From IMG/VR virus record IMGVR_UViG_3300044621_002460, positions 1 to 23,039 of that record: a stretch of DNA of 23,039 bases; one strand, written 5' to 3'. This stretch comes from a virus. Shown here piece by piece: positions 3,001 to 23,039 of the stretch. Every line of letters begins with the position of its first letter. Within the stretch, counting starts at the first letter, position 1. The position numbers and the translations under genes are program-made. The notes beneath the pieces are model-generated. The model had not been told where the DNA came from. It did not search any database and was given only the letters and a program-made list of their open reading frames with translations.

Positions 3001-6000
3001 TCAGGTTCCCAGATAAAACTTGTCGTTTAATATCTGTTTCAGACAAAATAGTTCGACCACTAGAGACAAATTCAATATTAGATAAAGCTCTTGCTACTTT
3101 ATTTATTTGTTCTGTTAATCGTTGATAGTTGACTAAATTCTCTTTGACTGCTTCGTTATATTTTTCTTGCGATTCTTTTAATTTTCTAAGTTGAACTTCA
3201 GTAATTTCTAGCTGGATACTAGCATTATCTTTTTGAGAATTAGAAGACTCTGGATCATCTAAAACTTTTTTAATTGCTGTAATTCTTTCTTCTGTAGATG
3301 CTATCTCATTAACAATAAGCCCAATTTGAGGAAAGTATTTTTCCGTTAAAGCTTGTATTTCTTTGTTTACTTTCGCAATTTCTTGACGAACAGATGTAGC
3401 TTTTTTAACATCAGCATCTCCACTAGCTATGATTTCATCTATCTTGAGGTCTTTCGCTTTTTGTCGCAATGTGTCAAGTTTACCTGTAAATTCGGTAATC
3501 TTTGTATCACTAAATGTGTCAGTTGATAATTTTAAGATTTGTGTTGTATTACTTAGTCCCCCCGCAGTAAACTCTAAACTTTTATCTCTTTCTCTGTTGT
3601 TTTTAAATTGCTGAATTGCGGTTGCACTATCAGTTACAACAGTAGAAGCTTTAGGTATAGGTAAAGGTTTTTCTAGTAATCGTCTCAATTCTTGTAACGA
3701 TTCTTGAGTTGATTTAAGGGATCGTTTAGACTCTTCGGAGCCTGCGTTGATGTATTGATAAAGCCCTTTAAAAGCTTCCATTACACCAAAGACTAAAGCA
3801 GTCCATCCTAGCCCTTTAACAAATCCTATACCTATTTGTGCAATTGATGCTTTTGTAGATGCTGCGGTAACTCCTAGTGCTTTTAGCCCTAACTTTAAAA
3901 GACCAAGCCTGTGTAACATTTGAACAAATACACCCGATACGACAATCCCCATCGAAACAAAAGTAGCTACAATTTTATCTCCATGATCCTCTAAAGTCCT
4001 AAGTCCACTGATAACTGTAGGTATCCCTAATTTAGCCACTTCTAATAAAGGTTTCCCCATTTCTACGCGAAGCAAGTTTAATTGATTTTCAAGTTTTGCA
4101 ACTTGAGCAAAAGCCGTGTCATTAATTACATTAATCCCTCCTGCTGATTCTAAAGTAGTTTGAGTTGCAAATTTCGACAAAAATTCATCTGATGCTACTG
4201 ATCCAGACTCAATTAATTTAATAAATTCTTGAGACGTTACACCATAAGCTCTAGCGGCAATCTGTAACGCGCCTGGCATTGCTTCACCTAACTGAGAGTT
4301 AAGTTCTTCCATTGAAACACGACCTTTACTAGCTATTTGAGTAATAGCTAGTAAAGCTCTGTCTTGCTGTTGGGAATTAGCACCTCTAGTAGCCAATCCT
4401 AATGTTATTCCTTCAAAAATTTTATCTTTTTGAAACTCTAGTGAAGTGTTCATTACAGCAGCACTAAACTGCTGATAGTTTTTGGCAGAAGACAAAAAAG
4501 ATGTTCCAAGTTTATCTGCTTGTACTTTTAGCCTAGATAAAGCAGACTCAGCGTCGTCTGTGGTTAAGGATAAAGCCATTTCTAACCGCTCTGCTTCAAT
4601 TGCTGTTTGAAAAGCTTCTTTTCCAAATTTATTTAATAAACCAACAGTTGATTCAAGAACGTTAAAACCAACCATACCTAATATTGCGTTTCTTATTAGT
4701 CCAGCAACTTTCTTAATTGGTTCTGGTAATTTATCAAGTGATCTTTCAACTTTATCAGCAATGGTGCTAAATTGCTCTAACTTACTTTTACTTTTAAAAT
4801 CATCAATTTTATCAAGAATCCCTCCAATATTAAAAACTTTTCTCCCTACCTGTTTAATATTTGTTTTTATTGTTTCACGGTTTAGGGGTTGCATTTGTTT
4901 AGCAGATTCTTCCATCTCCCATTGTCTAAACTTTACTTCACTTCTTACATTACTAGGAAGTGCATTAAAAATTCTTTTCCCTGCTTTTTGGACATTAGTT
5001 TTTAAAGATTCACGGTCTAAGGATTTTACTTTCCCGACAAAATCTTTTATCTCTATCTCCTTAAATTTTAATTCAGTTTTTATTCCATCTAGTCCTAGTA
5101 TTAAACCTCTTTTGATGTCACGACCAATTCGCATCATAACTTTTGATGGAGATTGAATCTCAAGTGTATCTCTAATTGTTTTCGGTAAGGTTAAAGCAAT
5201 TTCCCGCATTTCCGCATCTAAATCACCAGACTCGCTTTTAATTCCTATTTTTATCCCTTCTATAATGTCAGAGCCAAGTCCTTTAGTCTTATTTTTATTT
5301 GCTAAAACAGGATTTAAGCTTAAGATTAGTTTCTCTAAATTAGCCTCTATTAACTCTTTATTCCCACCAGAAGCTATTGATTTTGCCGATTGTTCTATAG
5401 CCTTTGCGAATAGAGTTTTAAAGCCTACTGTAGTAGTATCGACACCAGTTTTCTGAATTTGTTGAATTAGTCCTGATTTAATAGGAGATAATTCTTTTAT
5501 ACCAATTGTTTCTTGAGCAGTCTGAACTTTTTTTCCTGTACTACTTAAGTATCCTTTTGCAGACTGAACAGAAGCACCGACTCCCCCAGAAGCTATAGAA
5601 GTGGGCTGTCCAGCTTCTTTGAGTAATTTTAGTATGTCTTCTAAATCAGAAGAGGCTTGTTCTTTGGCAATTAATATTTCATTAGCTACTTTTTTTGCTT
5701 GGTCTAATTCACCAGAATCTATTAATGTTTTTAATTTTTGATAACGATCACTAAACCATTTTCTAATTGCGTCAGATTGAGCCTGTGCTTTAACAATATC
5801 AGCAGATGCAGGATTACTTTGAATTAAAGACTTTAGGTCTTTTGTCTGTTTAGACAGCGACACAAGTTCTTTTTCTTTAACACCTATATTGCTACTAACA
5901 ATATTGTTGGTTGTTATATTTTTAGACGGGTTATTTTTTGAACTAATACTAGGAATCTCAAACGATTTCTCTTCAGTGCCTAATTTAATGTTAGGAATAT

Positions 6001-11221: not shown

Positions 11222-11431
11222 TTAGGGAGTGTTTTTTTGTTTTTTTTTCAACCGATAACGACGACATCTTTCGGCGTTAGTCATTGAATCAGGGTGGGGA
11301 GGTTTTCCTGCCGGATTGCCAGTAAAATGATGATTGCAATCCTTACAGCGATAACGCTGTTTTCCTGACACAGAGAACCCTTTTTTAGAGATTCTCTGTG
11401 ATTGACATTTGGGACAATTAAAGAACTCCAT
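11222..11431 (-). CDS. Small IS1-InsA-like zinc-ribbon protein
   Basis: A 69-residue protein with a zinc ribbon Cys6-x2-Cys9-x19-Cys29-x2-Cys32. The stretch between the pairs (GFSVSGKQRYRCKDC) closely follows the N-terminal zinc finger of IS1-family InsA, which binds transposon ends. No transposase catalytic domain or IS ends are nearby. A basic tail follows (NAERCRRYRLKKKQKN), so it probably binds nucleic acid. It overlaps the end of the upstream gene by 14 bases and is the last gene before the terminator at 11166-11198. This could be a captured transposase domain serving as a phage regulator (inference). Confidence 0.75.
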   Translation of the reverse strand: MEFFNCPKCQSQRISKKGFSVSGKQRYRCKDCNHHFTGNPAGKPPHPDSMTNAERCRRYRLKKKQKNTP

Positions 11432-12142: not shown

Positions 12143-12270
12143 GTAGTTTGTCAAACTTTTTTATTATCTTTTTGTAGTTCGTAGATTTACCTATGGTTAC
12201 ACTGATCGCAGAACTGCCAAAAATCTCGGAAAATTAAGCCAATAAAGTAATCACACACTTTTTGACGGAT

Positions 12271-12343
12271 GATAACTGATAACTGATAACTGACAACTGA
12301 TAACTGATAACTGATAACTGACAACTGATAACTGACAACTGAT
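12271..12343. repeat. Heptamer tandem array GATAACT (10 units)
   Basis: Ten head-to-tail 7-base units; units 4, 8 and 10 are GACAACT, the others GATAACT. The array begins at the stop codon of the 47-residue gene and fills its 3' flank. Shorter arrays of the same unit occur at 12584-12599, 13690-13717 and 14122-14145. Heptameric tandem repeats are a known feature of cyanobacterial intergenic DNA. Confidence 0.9.
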
Positions 12344-12486
12344 TACAGCATCGGATATTTGTCTAGTACTGTTTGTACTTTCTGATCTAAAGATTGAGTT
12401 ATTTGCTCAATCTCTTCGCGGAAAGTTTGAGCCTTTTTAATTTTAGGAATTTGTGTTGTTTCGATTAGTTGTTTATCGTTAGACAT
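12343..12486 (-). CDS. 47-residue protein under the shared promoter-operator
   Basis: A small frame starting ATG TCT AAC at 12486, with GAGG about nine bases upstream, and ending TAA at 12343. The product begins MSNDKQLIETTQIPKIKK and continues with an amphipathic helix (FREEIEQITQSLDQKVQTV); it has no Cys or membrane segment. It is preceded at the usual distance by one copy of the 63-bp promoter-operator, and the ribosome-site context (CACACGAGGTA) matches that of the 319-residue gene, which supports a real gene. Function unknown. Confidence 0.75.
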   Translation of the reverse strand: MSNDKQLIETTQIPKIKKAQTFREEIEQITQSLDQKVQTVLDKYPML

Positions 12487-12519
12487 GACTTAGTACCTCG
12501 TGTGTTTTGGTTACTTCCT

Positions 12520-12582
12520 ATTGTGGATCATTCTCCCAGAAATGTCAACTATCTGGGAGAATCTTTTTTGAACAAGTGTACT
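12520..12582 (-). promoter_or_regulatory. Promoter-operator copy A
   Basis: Minus strand: AGTAC box at 12582-12578; an 11-bp perfect inverted repeat (attctcccaga 12530-12540 and tctgggagaat 12552-12562); -35 TTGACA (12548-12543) between the arms; 17-base spacer; -10 CACAAT (12525-12520). It points to the 47-residue gene. A repressor bound to the repeat would cover the -35 box. Confidence 0.85.
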
Positions 12583-12604
12583 ACTGATAACTGATAACTA
12601 GAAG

Positions 12605-13564: not shown

Positions 13565-13599
13565 AGCTTGTTACCTCGTGTGTTTGTTTGCCTAGTCTT

Positions 13600-13662
13600 A
13601 TCTTACAAAATTCTCCCAATAAAGTCAAGTATGTGGGAGAATTATTTCTGAACGTTTGTACT
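13600..13662 (-). promoter_or_regulatory. Promoter-operator copy B
   Basis: AGTAC box 13662-13658; operator arms attctccca (13610-13618) and tgggagaat (13634-13642); -35 TTGACT (13628-13623); 17-base spacer; -10 TAAGAT (13605-13600), the best -10 of the set. It drives the 319-residue gene. Outside the conserved boxes it differs from copies A and C, so it is not simply a recent copy. Confidence 0.85.
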
Positions 13663-13689
13663 ACTTGTTAATCCCAAATAGTTGATGAT

Positions 13690-13717
13690 GATAACTGATA
13701 ACTGATAACTGATAATT
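13690..13717. repeat. Heptamer array GATAACT (3 units plus GATAATT)
   Basis: Four 7-base units between the stop of the DUF6876-like gene and promoter-operator copy B. It is the same unit as the array at 12271-12343. Confidence 0.85.
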
Positions 13718-14121: not shown

Positions 14122-14145
14122 GATAACTGATAACTGATAACTGAT
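14122..14145. repeat. Heptamer array GATAACT (3 units)
   Basis: Three units plus GAT lie in the 5' leader of the DUF6876-like gene, between its promoter-operator and its ribosome site. Here the repeat would be part of the transcript. Confidence 0.85.
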
Positions 14146-14165
14146 GTGTGTTTTGGTTACTTTTT

Positions 14166-14228
14166 ATTGTGGATCATTCTCCCAGAAATGTCAACTATCT
14201 GGGAGAATTATTTCTGAGCATTTGTACT
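14166..14228 (-). promoter_or_regulatory. Promoter-operator copy C
   Basis: AGTAC box 14228-14224; 11-bp operator arms attctcccaga (14176-14186) and tctgggagaat (14198-14208); -35 TTGACA (14194-14189); 17-base spacer; -10 CACAAT (14171-14166). It drives the DUF6876-like gene. The last codons and TAA stop of the upstream zinc-finger gene are embedded in its AGTAC-to-operator part. Operator and spacer are identical to copy A. Confidence 0.85.
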
Positions 14229-14588
14229 ACGTCTTTGTTTGTAGCGTTGGTGTTGAGATTGTTTCCGCTTAGGATCAAGTTCTCGATGTTCCAAGCAGTA
14301 CCCAGATTTGTTTCGGGTATTAAGTGCTGTAAATTTACCCAAAACTAAGCAGGCAGCACAATATTTAGTTTCAGAGATAACTGCTTCTGTAGAAAAGTTG
14401 ATTCCTTTTTTTGCGATTATCTGAGGAGGCTTATCACAGACTAAAGCTACTCTTGTCAAACCTATGCCCGATAAAGAGTAATCTTGTAGCTTAACAAGAC
14501 TTAAGTTAGTGTCAGTATTGTCGATTTTCTGAATAGAAGATTTTAAAACCTCAAAATCTTCTAATTTAAGAGACAAGATTAAGATCAT
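14208..14588 (-). CDS. Putative zinc-binding protein, 126 residues
   Basis: The N-terminal half is an unrecognised alpha/beta region (MILILSLKLEDFEVLKSS). The C-terminal half holds a treble-clef or knuckle-like motif KYCAACLVLGK...SGYCLEHR, that is Cys-x2-Cys, about 17 residues, Cys-x2-His, followed by a very basic tail (KRKQSQHQRYKQRRS). This fits a small nucleic-acid-binding protein. It has no promoter-operator of its own and probably follows the 127-residue gene from copy D, past a weak hairpin at 14614-14635. No ribosome site is clear at ATG 14588. The final codons lie within promoter-operator copy C of the next gene. Confidence 0.75.
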   Translation of the reverse strand: MILILSLKLEDFEVLKSSIQKIDNTDTNLSLVKLQDYSLSGIGLTRVALVCDKPPQIIAKKGINFSTEAVISETKYCAACLVLGKFTALNTRNKSGYCLEHRELDPKRKQSQHQRYKQRRSTNAQK

Positions 14589-15034: not shown

Positions 15035-15067
15035 GATTGTTACTTTTCCGTGTTTTGGTTACTTTCT

Positions 15068-15130
15068 ATTGTGGATCGTTCTCCCAATAAAGTCAATAGA
15101 TTGGGAGAATCTTTTTTGAGCAGATGTACT
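15068..15130 (-). promoter_or_regulatory. Promoter-operator copy D
   Basis: AGTAC box 15130-15126; 10-bp operator arms ttctcccaat (15079-15088) and attgggagaa (15100-15109); -35 TTGACT (15096-15091); 17-base spacer; -10 CACAAT (15073-15068). It drives the 127-residue gene. The AGTAC box directly abuts the terminator of the gene to the right, which isolates the two units. Confidence 0.85.
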
Positions 15131-15167
15131 AATAAAAAACACTTAGCTTAGTTAAGTGTTTTTTATT
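15131..15167 (-). terminator. Intrinsic terminator of the 318-residue gene
   Basis: A 15-bp perfect stem (15131-15145 and 15153-15167) with a 7-base loop. The stem ends are A/T-rich, so the minus-strand transcript ends in TTTTTTATT. The symmetric A/T ends would let it work on either strand. Confidence 0.85.
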
Positions 15168-16146: not shown

Positions 16147-16180
16147 TGTTTTAATCCTTGTGTGTTTTGTTTACTTCTCT

Positions 16181-16243
16181 ATAGTAGATCGTTCTCCCAA
16201 TAAAGTCAAGTGGGTGGGAGAATTATTTCTGAGCAGATGTACT
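16181..16243 (-). promoter_or_regulatory. Promoter-operator copy E
   Basis: AGTAC box 16243-16239; operator arms ttctccca (16192-16199) and tgggagaa (16215-16222); -35 TTGACT (16209-16204); 17-base spacer; -10 TACTAT (16186-16181). It drives the 318-residue gene. It shares the -35-to-operator block with copy D and the AGTAC-to-operator block with copy C apart from two bases after the AGTAC box. Confidence 0.85.
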
Positions 16244-16263
16244 AAGTATATTTACCTGTTACC

Positions 16264-16682
16264 ATTGTAGATAGATTGTAGATAGGGTGATCGACAACCG
16301 AAACCGTTACCCTGTAAAGGTTCTAGACTTTGTAGATAATGTCGATGTCTTATAAAGGAAAAAGATAAAAGAATAAACCAGACTGGACAATAAAAAACTG
16401 TAGAGTAAAAAAGCAAACAAGGTCAACAGCAAGGCTGTTGGATTGTGATTCGATTGTAGATAAGGTTATCTACAATCGAAAGCCTTGCAGGGTATAGGTT
16501 TCAAAGTTTGTTTATCTTGTTGGCACTTTATACAGGGGAGAGAAAAAATAGGGAGAGATAAACGAACTGGACAATAAGAAAAGGATAAAAAATCCTGACA
16601 CGGGAATAAGGCTAACAACATCAACAAAGTCTAGAACCTATATATATCAATGCTTTTTATTGTTGATCACCTTATCTACAAT
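16264..16682. repeat. Gene-free region with TTGTAGATA iterons and a diverged duplication
   Basis: No gene is visible between 16147 and 16751. After promoter-operator copy E the region holds two adjacent perfect 11-base repeats attgtagatag (16264-16274 and 16275-16285), a further copy of the core at 16330-16338, a palindromic pair at 16451-16478 and a reversed copy at 16673-16682. Two blocks, about 16275-16440 and 16452-16625, align loosely along their length and share landmarks (GATTGTAGATA, an AACCGAAA/AATCGAAA step, CTGGACAATAA), which suggests an old duplication of about 185 bp. It could be an origin, a regulator-binding array or a source of small RNA; the sequence does not decide. Confidence 0.6.
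16451..16478. repeat. Palindrome of the iteron core
   Basis: Arms cgattgtagataa (16451-16463) and ttatctacaatcg (16466-16478) are perfect complements around GG. This joins two inverted copies of the iteron and looks like a dimer-binding site. Confidence 0.75.
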
Positions 16683-16703
16683 CTATTTACAAACCAACAA
16701 ACT

Positions 16704-17727: not shown

Positions 17728-18039
17728 TTAATTAAATTTTTTGTACTCTTGTAGTATTAGGTCGGTTGCCTCCTCAATTTGGTTTCCTTTTGATAGCAGT
17801 TCAAGGACTTTAGCCAGAACTTGTCTGACTTGTTCTTTACCTATTCCTAATTCTGCTGTAGTTGATGCCACTCTAAAGCGATAGTTCCGATGCCGGGAAG
17901 TAACAGGCACTGGGTCAAGATTATTGTTTTTTGCCCACACTAGATAGATGTAGGCTTGTCTAGGTGTTATCACTTTTGCCCAAATCCAGTGACAGTAAAT
18001 CGCTAGAGTAACTAAGAATATATTTAAAGTAATAAGCAC
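17728..18039 (-). CDS. Small membrane-anchored protein, 103 residues
   Basis: Starts at GTG 18039; no other Met occurs in the frame. Residues 2-20 (LITLNIFLVTLAIYCHWIW) form one membrane anchor or signal-anchor, followed by a basic soluble domain with ITPRQAYIYLVWAKNN and a C-terminal helical region (GIGKEQVRQVLAKVLELL) that could be a small helix-turn-helix. No ribosome site is visible. The start codon lies within one palindromic arm of the 188-bp repeat element, so translation could be controlled by that structure. I do not recognise the family. Confidence 0.65.
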   Translation of the reverse strand: MLITLNIFLVTLAIYCHWIWAKVITPRQAYIYLVWAKNNNLDPVPVTSRHRNYRFRVASTTAELGIGKEQVRQVLAKVLELLSKGNQIEEATDLILQEYKKFN

Positions 18040-18219
18040 TAGACCAAGTGCGTGCGTCAGCCGACTACTATTTCAAATCGGTTACTGGAATTACACCAGC
18101 AAGCTTAGAACGACTCATTAACCAGTCTCACCAGCCGACTACTATTTCAAATCGGTTACTGATCCGCCCAGTAGCTTATGGAGGCTCTAATTAATGGATG
18201 CACTTGGTTTAGTGCTTAT
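18032..18219. repeat. 188-bp symmetric element: 20-bp terminal inverted repeats with two internal 30-bp direct repeats
   Basis: Terminal arms at 18032-18051 and 18200-18219 are complementary at 19 of 20 positions. Each arm is itself a palindrome (GCACT-6-AGTGC). Inside are two identical 30-base direct repeats (18058-18087 and 18132-18161; core ccgactactatttcaaatcg) spaced 74 bases start to start, each with a CCGA...TCGG mini-stem. It separates the small membrane-protein gene from the methyltransferase gene. It could be a structured leader RNA, a multi-site operator, a recombination or partition site, or a small mobile element. Confidence 0.75.
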
Positions 18220-18279
18220 ATTTTAAATATATCATGATAATTTTCAGATAGTTGGCAAAGTGTGACAGTTTATCAAGTG

Positions 18280-19353
18280 TCACTGTGTGTATTTTTGTAC
18301 TGATTGTTCTGTAAACCACTGTAAATAAATCTGATGCGCTATCTGTGCAGTCATTACAGGAGGAACTGACATACCAATTAAATACTTTGGATCGATATTT
18401 TTAAAGTTGTAATCGAGTGGATAGCTACCAATTAGGCAAGTTGCTTTATTTGATATATAATTATTTAAGTTACTGTGTATTAGTTTATTTTTGTTTGCTA
18501 TTACTGTTAAAGGCGTTTGATTTTCTAAGCAAACAAAAGTAAATCCAATACCGCCGATTTTGCCATTTAAACTTTTTTTATGTGTTTGTAACGCACCTGT
18601 TGATGTTATAGGGTTTTTTAAAAGTTTTTTTATATAATTACATTTAATTGCTTCTCCAATTTCATTTGTTCCAAATTCACCAAACAAAATTGGCTCTTCA
18701 TTAAAACTTAACTCTAGATTTTTAAAGTTTAAATCATTCCTTTGACAAATAAAGAACACTCGCTCACGTTTTTGAGGCACTCCCATGCTTGCGGCGTTCA
18801 AGAGGAATAACTGTACTTTATATCCTGCTTTTTCAAATTCATCTTTTATTCGCTTTACATACGCTTTGGCATTACCTTGAATAATTCCTTTAACATTTTC
18901 AGCGATAACGACCTTTGGCTGTAGTTTTTTTGCTAATCGTATGTAATCAAAGAAAAGGTCATCAAGTCGCTGTTTAGCCTGACCTTCCCTAAATACTTTT
19001 TCTTTCCCCCAGTCTTTTTCTCTATTTCCTGCCATGCTAAATGAAGAGCAGGGAGGTGAGCCGTCTAAAATATCTAGGTTGTAAAGTTCATCGGGAAGAG
19101 TTGCACGATCAGCAAAATCTCTTATATCTTCAATAAATAAATATTTAGGATTGTGGTTAGCTTTATATATATTAGCTACTTGCGGGTCTATTTCAACACC
19201 TCCTAAATGGTCAAAACCTGCTAACTTGTAACCCATAGTCGAGCCACCGCCACAGATAAAAGTACCAGATACTTTTAACCCATGTTTTTCAATTCCGGGT
19301 GCTGGGTATCCATCTGACAAATTCCACTTATATGCAAATTTATGTTTAGTCAT
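18280..19353 (-). CDS. DNA (cytosine-5-)-methyltransferase
   Basis: A 357-residue C5-cytosine methyltransferase that transfers a methyl group from S-adenosylmethionine to cytosine in a specific DNA site. Motif I is VSGTFICGGGSTMGYKLAGF (29-47); motif IV GSPPCSSFS carries the catalytic Cys102; motif VI AENV has Glu152; motif VIII QKRERVFF (194-201) supplies the QxRxR residues; the end, YLIGMSVPPVMTAQIA, fits motifs IX-X. Motif I has ICGGGS where FxGxGG is usual. No restriction enzyme lies next to it, so it is likely an orphan phage enzyme that protects DNA from host restriction. It overlaps the ParB-like gene by 8 bases, so the two are made together. Low-GC codon use resembles its neighbours. 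Confidence 0.95.
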   Translation of the reverse strand: MTKHKFAYKWNLSDGYPAPGIEKHGLKVSGTFICGGGSTMGYKLAGFDHLGGVEIDPQVANIYKANHNPKYLFIEDIRDFADRATLPDELYNLDILDGSPPCSSFSMAGNREKDWGKEKVFREGQAKQRLDDLFFDYIRLAKKLQPKVVIAENVKGIIQGNAKAYVKRIKDEFEKAGYKVQLFLLNAASMGVPQKRERVFFICQRNDLNFKNLELSFNEEPILFGEFGTNEIGEAIKCNYIKKLLKNPITSTGALQTHKKSLNGKIGGIGFTFVCLENQTPLTVIANKNKLIHSNLNNYISNKATCLIGSYPLDYNFKNIDPKYLIGMSVPPVMTAQIAHQIYLQWFTEQSVQKYTQ

Positions 19354-20050
19354 TACCTAAAAGCTTCCATACTGCTTGTTCGGGTGTCAATGCTATTTTA
19401 CTTAATTGTTCTTTTACTTGCCAGTATTCATTTTCTGTATAACTTAATTTAATTATCATTTGCCCATCCATACCCTCGATGTCAATTTCTTTGTTTTTTC
19501 CCGAAAAATTATCTGTTATATTCGATTCAAAATTATCAGAATTATCTAAATTATCTGAAGTATTTAAAGCTTCTAGGATTGAATTTAAATCGCCGATTAC
19601 TCCTAAATTCTCCCCCCTTTCATCAAGGTATTCAGCTTGGCTAATTAGTAAGTCAGTATCAAAAAGCTTTAATTCCGTAGCAAGGTCAAGCCCCGCCCCG
19701 TGAATCGTAGAATGGTTGTGAATAATCGAGTATTTTATAGCTTGAGCCTCATTTTTAGCGTGAACTCCTACTAAAATAGGAACCATCCACTCCCTATCAT
19801 TGTCAATATCTATACCTCTAGGTCGATCTATTTTGCGCTTTTTAATTGCTAATAGTGCGGCACACCGATCATGACCCTCAGTAATCCCCCCTTTTCCGCC
19901 GTTTAAGCTCGGATCGTAGCCAATTGGGTCTTTAAACCCCAACTCCAATATTGAAGCTATTGTGTTTTCAGTGGCGTGTTTTTTGGAATTACCCTTTAGT
20001 TGTTTTAGGTCGCAAAGCCGTCGATACTCAATTTCTAATTTATCTGTCAT
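19346..20050 (-). CDS. ParB/Srx-fold domain protein coupled to the methyltransferase
   Basis: Starts at ATG 20050 (MTDKLEIEYR, 234 residues); an in-frame TTG at 20092 would add 14 hydrophobic residues without a better ribosome site. The N-terminal half shows the ParB-N pattern: a RRLCDLKQLKGNSKKH start, then a GGITEGHDRCAALLAI box (ParB box II, GHxR..A) and a VPILVGVHAKNEAQAIKYSI segment. No ParB central helix-turn-helix or Walker ParA partner is visible, and the middle holds an Asn/Asp-rich linker (NTSDNLDNSDNFESN). ParB-N proteins beside DNA methyltransferases are common in phages and may be nucleases, CTP-binding clamps or methylation partners. The role here is open. Confidence 0.85.
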   Translation of the reverse strand: MTDKLEIEYRRLCDLKQLKGNSKKHATENTIASILELGFKDPIGYDPSLNGGKGGITEGHDRCAALLAIKKRKIDRPRGIDIDNDREWMVPILVGVHAKNEAQAIKYSIIHNHSTIHGAGLDLATELKLFDTDLLISQAEYLDERGENLGVIGDLNSILEALNTSDNLDNSDNFESNITDNFSGKNKEIDIEGMDGQMIIKLSYTENEYWQVKEQLSKIALTPEQAVWKLLGND

Positions 20051-20091
20051 GATTGATGTAAGATTAAGTAACTCTACTACTATAATAACCA
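20051..20091. promoter_or_regulatory. 41-bp divergent intergenic region
   Basis: This short gap separates the leftward ParB-like gene from the rightward terminase genes. On the plus strand a TATAAT (20081-20086) lies only five bases before ATG 20092, so a transcript from it would be leaderless or start inside the gene; no good -35 is at 16-18 bases. Promoters for both directions may lie within the neighbouring coding regions. Confidence 0.35.
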
Positions 20092-20856
20092 ATGGTTGTC
20101 ACTAATCGAGGCAGAAAGCGTACATACTCTATTCATGAAGAGGTAATCGAGTTTACCAAATATCCTATCTGGGAACGGCAAGAACTAGAAACCCCTGACT
20201 GGTTTGAAAGATTTCAGATTTTTTACCTTCCTATTCCTTCAGGCTATCGCACTTTAAATCGAGCCTACGGTAACTGCGGGGAAGCTTCTGGGGAACAGAT
20301 AGAGAAGACTAAATTTAAACGAGCTAAAACTGTCCCCGATGACTGGCAGTTAGCGCATAAAAACTATCGATGGGAAGAGCGGGCGAAAGCCTATTGGCTT
20401 TTAAAGATTCAAGAGCAGCAAGCTTACACTGATAGCATTTTACGAGAAATCCGAGAGAAGACTCTAAAGATTACTCTAAAAAACCTCGAAAAGATTGAAC
20501 AGATGACTAATTATCCGATTTCTCGCCGTCGGATAGATTCTGTAGATGAATCGGGCCGGCCGATTGCCATAACAATTGAACCTAACGGAAATTGGAATCA
20601 TAGAGACGCAGTGACTATGGCTAAAACGTTGACTGATACCTTTGAAAAAGTTTTAGGTTTTGACACCATCGAGTACGCAATTAATATTGTTCAAAAGCAC
20701 GGATTAGCTGTTATTGACCCTGACGGAAAACTTATAGGACATTCTGGCATAGAGAAACTCGACGACGGACTGACCTCGATTATTCGTGATAGTGCAGAAT
20801 TTGATGATGATGTAATGGTTCCCACTAAAATAAGCGATGACGATGAGAGCGAGTAA
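20092..20856 (+). CDS. Probable terminase small subunit
   Basis: A 254-residue protein directly upstream of, and overlapping, the large terminase. The small subunit recognises phage DNA and loads the large subunit for packaging. The segment WQLAHKNYRWEERAKAYWLL recalls the W..RA.AY motif seen in small-terminase-like proteins next to TerL. A long charged helix follows (about 116-145), then a mid-protein region with NHRDAVTMAKTLTDTFEKVLG and an acidic tail (EFDDDVMVPTKISDDDE). No ribosome site precedes ATG 20092. The call rests mostly on context; another packaging accessory protein is possible. Confidence 0.7.
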   Translation: MVVTNRGRKRTYSIHEEVIEFTKYPIWERQELETPDWFERFQIFYLPIPSGYRTLNRAYGNCGEASGEQIEKTKFKRAKTVPDDWQLAHKNYRWEERAKAYWLLKIQEQQAYTDSILREIREKTLKITLKNLEKIEQMTNYPISRRRIDSVDESGRPIAITIEPNGNWNHRDAVTMAKTLTDTFEKVLGFDTIEYAINIVQKHGLAVIDPDGKLIGHSGIEKLDDGLTSIIRDSAEFDDDVMVPTKISDDDESE

Positions 20857-23039
20857 ATTATCATTAAAAAATCTTTCAAAGATAAAAACAGCGACCGAAA
20901 AATATCGACTTGTTAACACCAAAGAAGAAATTGTTTTTCCTCAATTACAAGAGGGAAAACAAGCTTTATTTGGGGAAATTGACGCTGATGTAATTTTCTA
21001 TGGCGGAGGCGCAGGAAGTGGAAAAGCAGGGCGTGCATCCAAGACAGGAAAAGCGATTGGAGATAAAATGCTTTCTATGGCGGATGCGCTTTTAGGGAAA
21101 AGACTATTATCATATAATAGTAGTTTTAATGAATCACAAGTGAAAGATTCAAAGGTCTTGGGATGGAGCGGTCAATGGATCGACTTCTCTGATCTTAAAG
21201 TCGGGGATAAGATTATGAATCCTGATGGTCAGTATCAAGAAATCATCCAAATTCACGAACAGGGATTTAAACAATTTTATCGGGTTTCTTTTGAAGACGG
21301 TACAAGTACAGAATGCTGTGGCGATCATTTATGGTCTTTTTGGGAATCTCGCCGTAATAGCCGCAGGAAGTCTAGTAACGGGATTAATCGAATTGAGTCG
21401 AATCTGACACCTAGAGGATGGAATACTAATTACATTACAAGAGCAAGGGTTAGGGATACTAATTGGTTGATTACTGAGATTAGCAAAGGAAGACGGTTTA
21501 TTGTTCCAGTTAACGCGCCATTGCAATTTACGGCACTTAACAGGTCTGATACTGGCAGAGCCTATTTTTACGGTTGTTTAATAGGCGATGGTTCTTATTG
21601 TAGTGATTCAATTATCGTAACAACTTCTGATAGATTTATTGCTGATAAACTCGTTGATATTTTAGGGAAAGAAGCTACCGTTAAAACACGAACACCAATA
21701 AAAGATAACCGTTTAGAAGTTTTATCCGTCAACGCGACAAAAGTTCAATGGGTTAAGTCTTGGATAAGCAACAATGAATATAAAGGAAAAAGAGCGTGGG
21801 AAAAAGTATTTCCCGACGGCTATTTATCAGCATCTCTTGATTTTCGTTATGCGTTTGCTCAAGGTCTTTTTGATACAGATGGAACTGTTGGAGACAAAAA
21901 AAGAGAAGTTTCCTATTGCACAACCAGTAAAGATTTGGCTATTCAGGTAGCTTCTTTGGTTCGTTCTTTGGGTTATATGGCTAAGATTACGAAAAGACAA
22001 CCAAAATATAGATACAAAGGGAAGCATTTAGATGGTCGTACAGCTTACGTCGTGGCTGTTGAGGGAAATCACCTTGAATTACTTTTTAGTTTGCCGCGTA
22101 AAGTTGAAAGAGCGAAAATGCTTGGACAATTTAATGGGGGATCAAGTTGGCCGGGTAAAAGAATTGTTTCTATTGAACCAACTGAAATTGATTACGCTCG
22201 TTGTATTACTGTTAGCAATCCAAATCATCTTTATTTAACAGATGATTATATAGTTACGCATAATAGTGCCGGGCTATTAATTGATTTTGCCCGTCAAGAA
22301 TTTATTAGCAATCCTGACTATCGGGCTGTTATATTTCGTCGGACGTATCCTGAATTTACTCAAGCAGGTGGACTAATAGATGAAAGCCAAAAAATCTATC
22401 AAGCAGTGAAAGGTAATTTTATTGAAAAGCCTCCAGGGTGGCGATTTCCATTTGGATCGAAAATATCTTTTAGACATTTACAATACGAAAAAACTGTCTA
22501 TGTTTATCAAGGGGGACAAATTGCAAGGATAGGTTTTGATGAATTAACCCATTTTACAGAAGAACAATTTTTCTATCTTCTCTCTAGAAACCGTTCAGTA
22601 TCGGGAATTAAACCCGCAGTTAGAGCAACCTGTAACCCCGATGCTGACTCTTGGGTAGCTAATTTTATCTCTTGGTGGATCGACCCTAAGACTGGGTATG
22701 CTATTGAAGAAAGAGGGGGAATAGTTAAATATTTTATTAGACGAGAAAACATAATCCACTGGGCTGATACTAAAGAAGAACTAATCGATAAATTTAGTCT
22801 TAAAGATGAACTTTTTGACCTTATTCCTAAAGATAAAAGAGAAAAGTTTTTATCAAATACAGATATTAATATTACACCAGATAATCTGATTAAAAGCTTT
22901 ACTTTTATTCCTGCTACGATTTTTGATAATCCAGCTTTAATTAGGGTTAACCCTACCTATTTGGCTAACCTTTACGCTTTACATCCTATTGAGCGGGAAA
23001 GACTTCTCAGGGGTAACTGGAAAGTTAAATATGAAGCTG
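20837..23039 (+). CDS. Terminase large subunit, intein-containing (3' end outside window)
   Basis: ATPase motor and nuclease for packaging DNA into the head. Starts ATG 20837 or 20843 (MTMRASKLSLKN), overlapping the small subunit by 14-20 bases, and stays open to the right edge. The N-extein is 63 residues from ATG 20837 and ends in Walker A GGGAGSGK; the C-extein begins SAGLLIDFARQEF, so the mature P-loop is GGGAGSGKS. After splicing, RRTYPEFTQAGG and a Walker B RIGFDELTHFTEEQ with its catalytic Asp-Glu pair follow, then ATCNPD (coupling motif region). The nuclease domain lies beyond the edge; the last visible residues, RLLRGNWKVKYEA, are typical just before it. The ATPase stays split until the intein is removed. 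Confidence 0.93.
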   Translation, partial: MTMRASKLSLKNLSKIKTATEKYRLVNTKEEIVFPQLQEGKQALFGEIDADVIFYGGGAGSGKAGRASKTGKAIGDKMLSMADALLGKRLLSYNSSFNESQVKDSKVLGWSGQWIDFSDLKVGDKIMNPDGQYQEIIQIHEQGFKQFYRVSFEDGTSTECCGDHLWSFWESRRNSRRKSSNGINRIESNLTPRGWNTNYITRARVRDTNWLITEISKGRRFIVPVNAPLQFTALNRSDTGRAYFYGCLIGDGSYCSDSIIVTTSDRFIADKLVDILGKEATVKTRTPIKDNRLEVLSVNATKVQWVKSWISNNEYKGKRAWEKVFPDGYLSASLDFRYAFAQGLFDTDGTVGDKKREVSYCTTSKDLAIQVASLVRSLGYMAKITKRQPKYRYKGKHLDGRTAYVVAVEGNHLELLFSLPRKVERAKMLGQFNGGSSWPGKRIVSIEPTEIDYARCITVSNPNHLYLTDDYIVTHNSAGLLIDFARQEFISNPDYRAVIFRRTYPEFTQAGGLIDESQKIYQAVKGNFIEKPPGWRFPFGSKISFRHLQYEKTVYVYQGGQIARIGFDELTHFTEEQFFYLLSRNRSVSGIKPAVRATCNPDADSWVANFISWWIDPKTGYAIEERGGIVKYFIRRENIIHWADTKEELIDKFSLKDELFDLIPKDKREKFLSNTDINITPDNLIKSFTFIPATIFDNPALIRVNPTYLANLYALHPIERERLLRGNWKVKYEA
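21026..22264 (+). other. LAGLIDADG homing intein within terminase large subunit (413 residues)
   Basis: An in-frame insertion between Lys63 and the Ser that follows. It begins with Ala1 rather than Cys or Ser, ends YLTDDYIVTHN (His412-Asn413), and Ser+1 follows. Block B is seen as FEDGTSTECCGDHLW with His101. The homing endonuclease has both LAGLIDADG helices: FYGCLIGDGSY (Asp188) and AQGLFDTDGTV (Asp285). Block F is RIVSIEPTEI. Residues 2-43 before the canonical SKVLGWSGQW block A are unusually long. Inteins self-excise and join the exteins; the endonuclease spreads the element to intein-less alleles. Confidence 0.93.

Follow-up and report, generated by a model that had tools for sequence, protein, structure and literature searches.

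Comparison with described systems

Multi-copy hairpin RNAs that titrate a protein, and the repeat antitoxin RNAs of type III toxin-antitoxin systems, are built of repeated hairpin modules in variable copy number. The element described here, located in a virus record of 23,039 bases (the whole stretch analysed, hereafter the window), likewise carries repeated hairpins of varying number; no partner protein or toxin gene was identified beside it. Shares with phage small non-coding RNAs the intergenic position, the short length, predicted transcription signals of its own and strong folding, but differs in having no Rfam 15 match and in its modular repeated hairpins with the invariant loop UGAAAUAGU. 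In size it is about a third or less of GOLLD and ROOL. As with these phage-associated RNAs (structures: PMC12286853), a structured RNA without known protein product is predicted; no match to GOLLD or ROOL is found in Rfam.

Phages are known to carry RNA mimics of CRISPR repeats, termed Racr (PMC10651486). The element resembles these solitary repeat units in being phage-encoded, intergenic, accessory and a putative hairpin RNA with a predicted promoter. Differs from them in the lack of a recognisable CRISPR repeat match and in the presence of two to three copies within 100 bp, whereas solitary units are defined as single. Phage CRISPR mini-arrays are similar in that two identical 30-nt repeats lie 44 nt apart; in the element, however, all genomes conserve the 44 nt that stand in the place of a spacer and belong to the fold, the duplicated unit is a 90-bp domain, not a repeat plus spacer, and no cas genes were noticed in the window.

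Description of the element

The element probably constitutes a gene of its own, on the minus strand of the window, whose product is a small structured non-coding RNA. Among the three ideas of the initial annotation, the structured regulatory RNA is the one supported, by compensatory stems, a minus-strand G-U bias, directional terminators and duplication of a domain. Its parts are as follows.

18018-18232, minus strand: predicted structured RNA of about 200 nt, also conserved in a further 25 contigs, with a diverged form in L106; changes in the consensus fold mostly pair-keeping
18225-18213 (5' end, near) and 18018 (3' end, at or beyond), minus strand: predicted RNA ends
18200-18232, minus strand: 5' strand of stem P1, the right inverted arm; inverted repeat, paired with 18018-18051 in the consensus fold
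18018-18051, minus strand: 3' strand of stem P1, the left inverted arm; inverted repeat
18187-18196, minus strand: 5' strand of stem P2, CAUUAAUUAG; consensus fold
18116-18125, minus strand: 3' strand of stem P2, CUGGUUAAUG; consensus fold and variant pairs
18116-18205, minus strand: domain 1, P2 plus hairpin H1, 90 bp; read from the sequences and repeat matches
18135-18155, minus strand: hairpin H1, CCGAYU-UGAAAUAGU-AGUCGG, within the 30-bp repeat 18132-18161; U-G to C-G change between genomes
18061-18081, minus strand: hairpin H2, sequence as H1, within the 30-bp repeat 18058-18087
18058-18107, minus strand: core of domain 2, TAAGCT..CTGG..CCAG..H2, homologous to the domain 1 core 18132-18178 by alignment and covariance-model matches

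The two 30-nt direct repeats are 100% identical, 74 nt apart, with 44 nt between them. Both are enclosed by 20-nt inverted arms (18032-18051 and 18200-18219, 95% identity), each with a short GCACTTGGTCTAGTGC / GCACTTGGTTTAGTGC stem-loop inside. This arrangement of identical repeats within internally palindromic arms had been noticed at the outset and is confirmed; the arms are even longer than noticed, since with one 1-nt gap they extend outward to 18018-18051 and 18200-18232 (91% over 34 nt). Segment 18010-18240 folds better than 200 of 200 dinucleotide shuffles on either strand, with z-scores of -7.7 and -5.7 that are driven in large part by the long arms. The element is not a chance arrangement, because the fold beats all 200 shuffles on both strands and the whole unit recurs in 25 other contigs. 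As coding sequence it was rejected on either strand: the plus-strand frame through it is stopped in L005, L018 and L021, the small minus-strand open reading frames are by inspection not conserved, and no conserved frame remains.

Distribution

Present once per genome in 25 other IMG/VR contigs, and as a diverged copy in L106. The exact 30-mer occurs in 21 IMG/VR contigs and a second word of the element raises the total to 25; the L106 copy was reached by way of a gene next to it and afterwards with a covariance model. Searches of whole records, four of them 82-88 kb long, give a single element in each genome, with 93-100% identity over most of its length. Around the element, L006 and the window do not differ. 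A looser hairpin pattern in IMG/VR also gave matches that were rejected, L056-L058 as lying within coding sequence of another phage and L179-L182 as one repeated unrelated stretch, read as chance.

No match is observed by blastn in INPHARED phages or PLSDB plasmids, nor is a copy found by covariance models in Aphanizomenon phage CL131 and more distant relatives; an exact scan for the core 21-mer in 84,980 prokaryote genomes (GTDB set) is negative, and in Rfam 15 nothing comes near gathering scores for the window or L106 (best E 0.68 and 1.2). The closest named phage by terminase is CL131 (42%), so freshwater cyanobacterial hosts are likely for the phages that carry the element. The putative RNA family, without a match in Rfam 15, occurs in phages (probably cyanophages) that as a group are poorly annotated.

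Consensus fold, strand and covariation

The minus-strand consensus fold comprises the long stem P1, the 10-bp stem P2 and two CCGAYU-UGAAAUAGU-AGUCGG hairpins, one per 30-bp repeat. Among 13 distinct elements it keeps 15 of 25 variant pair types and is broken by the other ten; of the plus-strand folds, the best keeps 7 of 18. Changes in the stems keep pairing more often on the minus strand, through G-U. Those opposite the 5' strand of P2 in L016, L018 and L021, for example, stay paired as G-U or A-U on this strand. End pairs of P2 are lost in L106 (two) and L019 (one), and L016 and L106 pair less tightly in the lower part of P1.

If only the close group is counted, pairs are no more frequent than in shuffles (66 of 500 attain the same percentage), because most known copies are very close and few changes are available. 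The decisive covariation comes from one sequence only, L106. Its H2 reads CUAUCU-UGAAAUAGU-AGAUAG, as compared with CCGAUU-UGAAAUAGU-AGUCGG: three adjacent pairs are changed on both sides, a fourth is C-G in place of U-G, and all nine bases of the loop stay the same. Compensatory changes in the arms, proposed as a check in the initial annotation, are also present in L106, at further pairs of P1. An invariant loop on a freely changing stem implies that something reads the loop.

Conservation of the element in close relatives does not exceed that of the coding genes next to it. Compared with L106, it differs at 11% of positions, and two neighbouring genes at 19-21% of third and 4-7% of first and second codon positions. 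This divergence pattern is in keeping with moderate constraint on a functional RNA and not with extreme conservation.

Domain duplication

The 90-bp unit equivalent to 18116-18205 is tandemly repeated in L005, L008, L010 and L013. It spans exactly the P2 stem and hairpin H1, so that a complete domain is added in these four contigs. The junction is the same in all four, and the duplication is probably one event that spread. The similarity of domains 1 and 2 continues outside the 30-mer (TAAGCT..CTGG/ACTG..CAG), pointing to an older duplication as the origin of the two-domain form itself.

Predicted transcription signals and the downstream gene

Transcription of the element and the transcript ends are predicted from the signals that flank it.

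18220-18258, minus strand: putative promoter region, TTGCCA-16-CATGAT (18258-18231) or CTGAAA-16-TAAAAT (18247-18220)
17985-18014, minus strand: degenerate 3' hairpin, equivalent to AGTTATTCCAGTGA..TCACTGGAATAACT in relatives and to full terminators in L016 and L106
17728-17973, minus strand: downstream gene, 81 aa, MITPRQAYIYL..., with re-annotated start
18280-19353, minus strand: C5-cytosine DNA methyltransferase, neighbour outside the element (PF00145, E 2.4e-47)
19346-20092, minus strand: ParB-like protein, neighbour outside the element (phrog_620, E 1.9e-9)

A promoter would lie in the right flank, about 18220-18258. The 5' flank GAAAATTATCATGATATATTT is invariant and is kept in L016 and L106, though the left flank is lost there; in several relatives the upstream genes point away from the element, which is counted as support for a promoter. 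Matches to a sigma-70-like consensus are at chance level (3, versus 3.1 expected). Directly after the element, and on the minus strand alone, L016 and L106 carry 15-bp hairpins with TTTT behind them; the differences between these two terminator hairpins are paired changes. Within the left arm, the inner part GCACTTGGTCTAGTGC-TTATTACTTT forms a weak hairpin of its own, similar to a terminator.

In the longest open reading frame (17728-18039, 103 aa) the GTG is indeed overlapped by the left arm, as the initial annotation had it; as a true start this GTG is probably an artefact of taking the longest frame. The 103-aa frame begins inside the element only in genomes with a decayed intervening hairpin. 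A stop lies in frame in L005 and L014, six codons ahead of the core ITPRQAYIYL that the homologues share, and in other relatives the N-terminus is unrelated; GTG 17971-17973 is therefore the more likely start. The downstream gene probably encodes 81 aa, starting at 17973, beyond the RNA. Its product has no family match and no supported membrane segment. The GTG start given for the 'membrane-protein gene' is probably wrong, the 'membrane' segment having been read through the RNA end and its hairpin. A false gene start would thereby be corrected.

The element could instead act in cis, as a leader controlling the downstream minus-strand gene, here the 81-aa gene 17728-17973. Methyltransferase, element and 81-aa gene follow one another on the minus strand in the window, and the intervening hairpin is degenerate, so that read-through is possible. 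What lies downstream, however, is not the same in all relatives (the 81-aa gene, a distinct gene B' or, in L106, a further small open reading frame), and a complete terminator stands between the element and the next gene in L016 and L106. Control in cis is accordingly considered unlikely.

Presence in whole genomes

A site acting at the level of DNA, in partition, replication origin, packaging or recombination, would also account for paired direct repeats inside inverted repeats in single copy per genome. The element lies about 2-4 kb from the terminase genes, and in the window a ParB-like gene is nearby (at about 1.1 kb, the distance given initially). The sister genomes G026 (84 kb) and G038 (90.6 kb) are nonetheless near full length and without the element, which is thus not essential; G027 and G028 also lack it. 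Repeats recognised as DNA would keep the letters of their stems, and in L106 both stem sides are changed and the loop is kept. The suggested partition site finds no support in the comparison by blastn: G002 has the element without a ParB-like homologue and G028 has a ParB-like gene without the element. Nor does a recombination site (attP), since no tyrosine integrase (PF00589) is found in six relatives of 82-90 kb, a search that covered tyrosine and not serine recombinases. A DNA-level role is judged improbable, somewhat more so than control in cis.

The large terminase subunit (20837-23038 in the window) is interrupted by an intein-like LAGLIDADG element. This insertion is present in the window, G002, G026 and L106 and absent from G004, G009, G021 and G027.

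Relation to CRISPR repeats

As an RNA anti-CRISPR (Racr), the element would have hairpins that mimic the host CRISPR repeat and tie up Cas proteins. In favour are the intergenic position in a variable region of a phage, the repeat-like hairpins of the putative RNA, and a separate element in the same phages that is similar to Microcystis type I-D repeats. The 30-mer itself was compared with five repeats of Microcystis aeruginosa FACHB-524 (taken from PMC11855584), a strain that may not be the host: the best p, 0.024 of five tests, is chance after correction. The exact core 21-mer is, moreover, absent from the 84,980 genomes. Mimicry of a CRISPR repeat is regarded as quite improbable for this element. 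A CRISPR array is disfavoured, the 44 nt between the repeats being nearly invariant across genomes, in contrast to variable spacers; a retron or DGR RNA is likewise disfavoured, with no reverse transcriptase (PF00078) in six genomes.

Accessory cassette

The element is in single copy at a constant locus, in fixed orientation relative to gene B, with several upstream and downstream gene contexts across contigs. A hairpin repeat flanks it.

18252-18283, strand not assigned: flanking hairpin repeat TTGGCRAAGTGTGACA...TGTCAC, about 33 bp, on both sides of the cassette in L018, L021 and L106 and once in empty L049, L051 and L109

Filled sites (L018, L021, L106) have the hairpin repeat, GTGACA...TGTCACACTTYGCCAAC, on both sides of the element; empty sites (L049, L051, L109) have a single copy. 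Gain and loss of the cassette by homologous recombination between the flanking hairpin repeats is the simplest explanation.

The initial annotation had also suggested a small non-autonomous element. An accessory cassette with empty sites does exist; the rest of the suggestion does not agree with a single copy at one locus in one orientation. A non-coding, MITE-like mobile cassette, kept without function, could draw on the empty and filled sites, the direct repeats of about 33 bp and the many different neighbours. Scattered copies are not found, the flanking repeats are intergenic hairpins of the phage and not target duplications, and the stem of L106 has changed in a compensatory manner, all of which speaks against such a cassette. 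It is the least probable of the explanations weighed here, with very little likelihood.

Proposed mechanism and role

For a self-contained RNA gene, the following course is proposed. The right flank, about 18220-18258, would serve as promoter and transcription would proceed on the minus strand. The RNA would be closed on itself by the long P1 stem and would display two copies of a module, three in some relatives; the key part of this module is a hairpin of 6 bp whose 9-nt loop, UGAAAUAGU, is invariant. Transcription would end at the hairpin adjoining the element on the left, which is complete as an intrinsic terminator in L016 and L106 and degenerate in the window. The repeated hairpins would be presented to one common partner, either a host or phage RNA-binding protein or a target RNA. 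That the RNA offers repeated sites to one partner is deduced from an invariant loop on stems free in their letters, from the two to three copies and from an accessory cassette in a variable region, which lies beside the methyltransferase in some genomes.

The presented hairpins may, more speculatively, act as decoy or regulator, useful in only some hosts. Granted that the element is an RNA, a decoy or counter-defence role is perhaps the case, a tentative proposal favoured with moderate to low confidence; the main alternative is a regulatory RNA acting on host or phage mRNA. Antisense targets in the phage genomes are limited to 12-nt matches, none of them, by inspection, at a conserved start codon. 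That the element is accessory points to a role in some hosts only, as for counter-defence factors. A still more specific proposal, considered doubtful, is a new class of counter-defence or host-takeover RNA, in which two to three identical UGAAAUAGU hairpins would be shown to a host protein or RNA, the number of domains would be set by tandem duplication and the gene would be swapped via the hairpin direct repeats. The modular design, together with natural variants in presence, absence and copy number, makes function testable.

Other repeats of the window and related phages

A second structured intergenic piece occurs in related phages and not in the window: in L067 at about 11300-11420 (contig G021), in L048, L049 and L051, and in L109 at 4270-4400. 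Its two hairpins, CCCTAATAGGGATT and GTTTCAATTCCTAATAGGA, are like the type I-D CRISPR repeat of Microcystis (0 of 500 shuffles as similar) and lie inside a CTTAAG inverted repeat. This piece is a candidate RNA anti-CRISPR.

An intergenic repeat of 85 nt occurs five times in the window (12500-12584, 13580-13664, 14146-14230, 15048-15132 and 16161-16245). Contains a CTCCCA..TGGGAG hairpin in which TTGACA is embedded, on the minus strand. These copies are possible repeated phage promoters or operators. Short tandem arrays of the heptamer GATAACT are found between genes at 12261-12349, 13691-13712 and 14123-14144. Short tandem repeats are known from filamentous cyanobacteria, and the resemblance of the arrays to these is a possible hint of the host. 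Between genes at 16265-16699 there are three related palindromes of about 25 nt (ATTGTAGATAAGGTTATCTACAATC) and long imperfect inverted repeats, operator-like in appearance.

Among close relatives, small intergenic hairpins stand in either orientation, CCAGTGATTTACTGTCACTGG versus CCAGTGACAGTAAATCACTGG; this concerns hairpins just left of the element in L011, L012, L007 and L017 and also those of the TTGGC repeat. The hairpins found in both orientations appear as if flipped by recombination across their stems.
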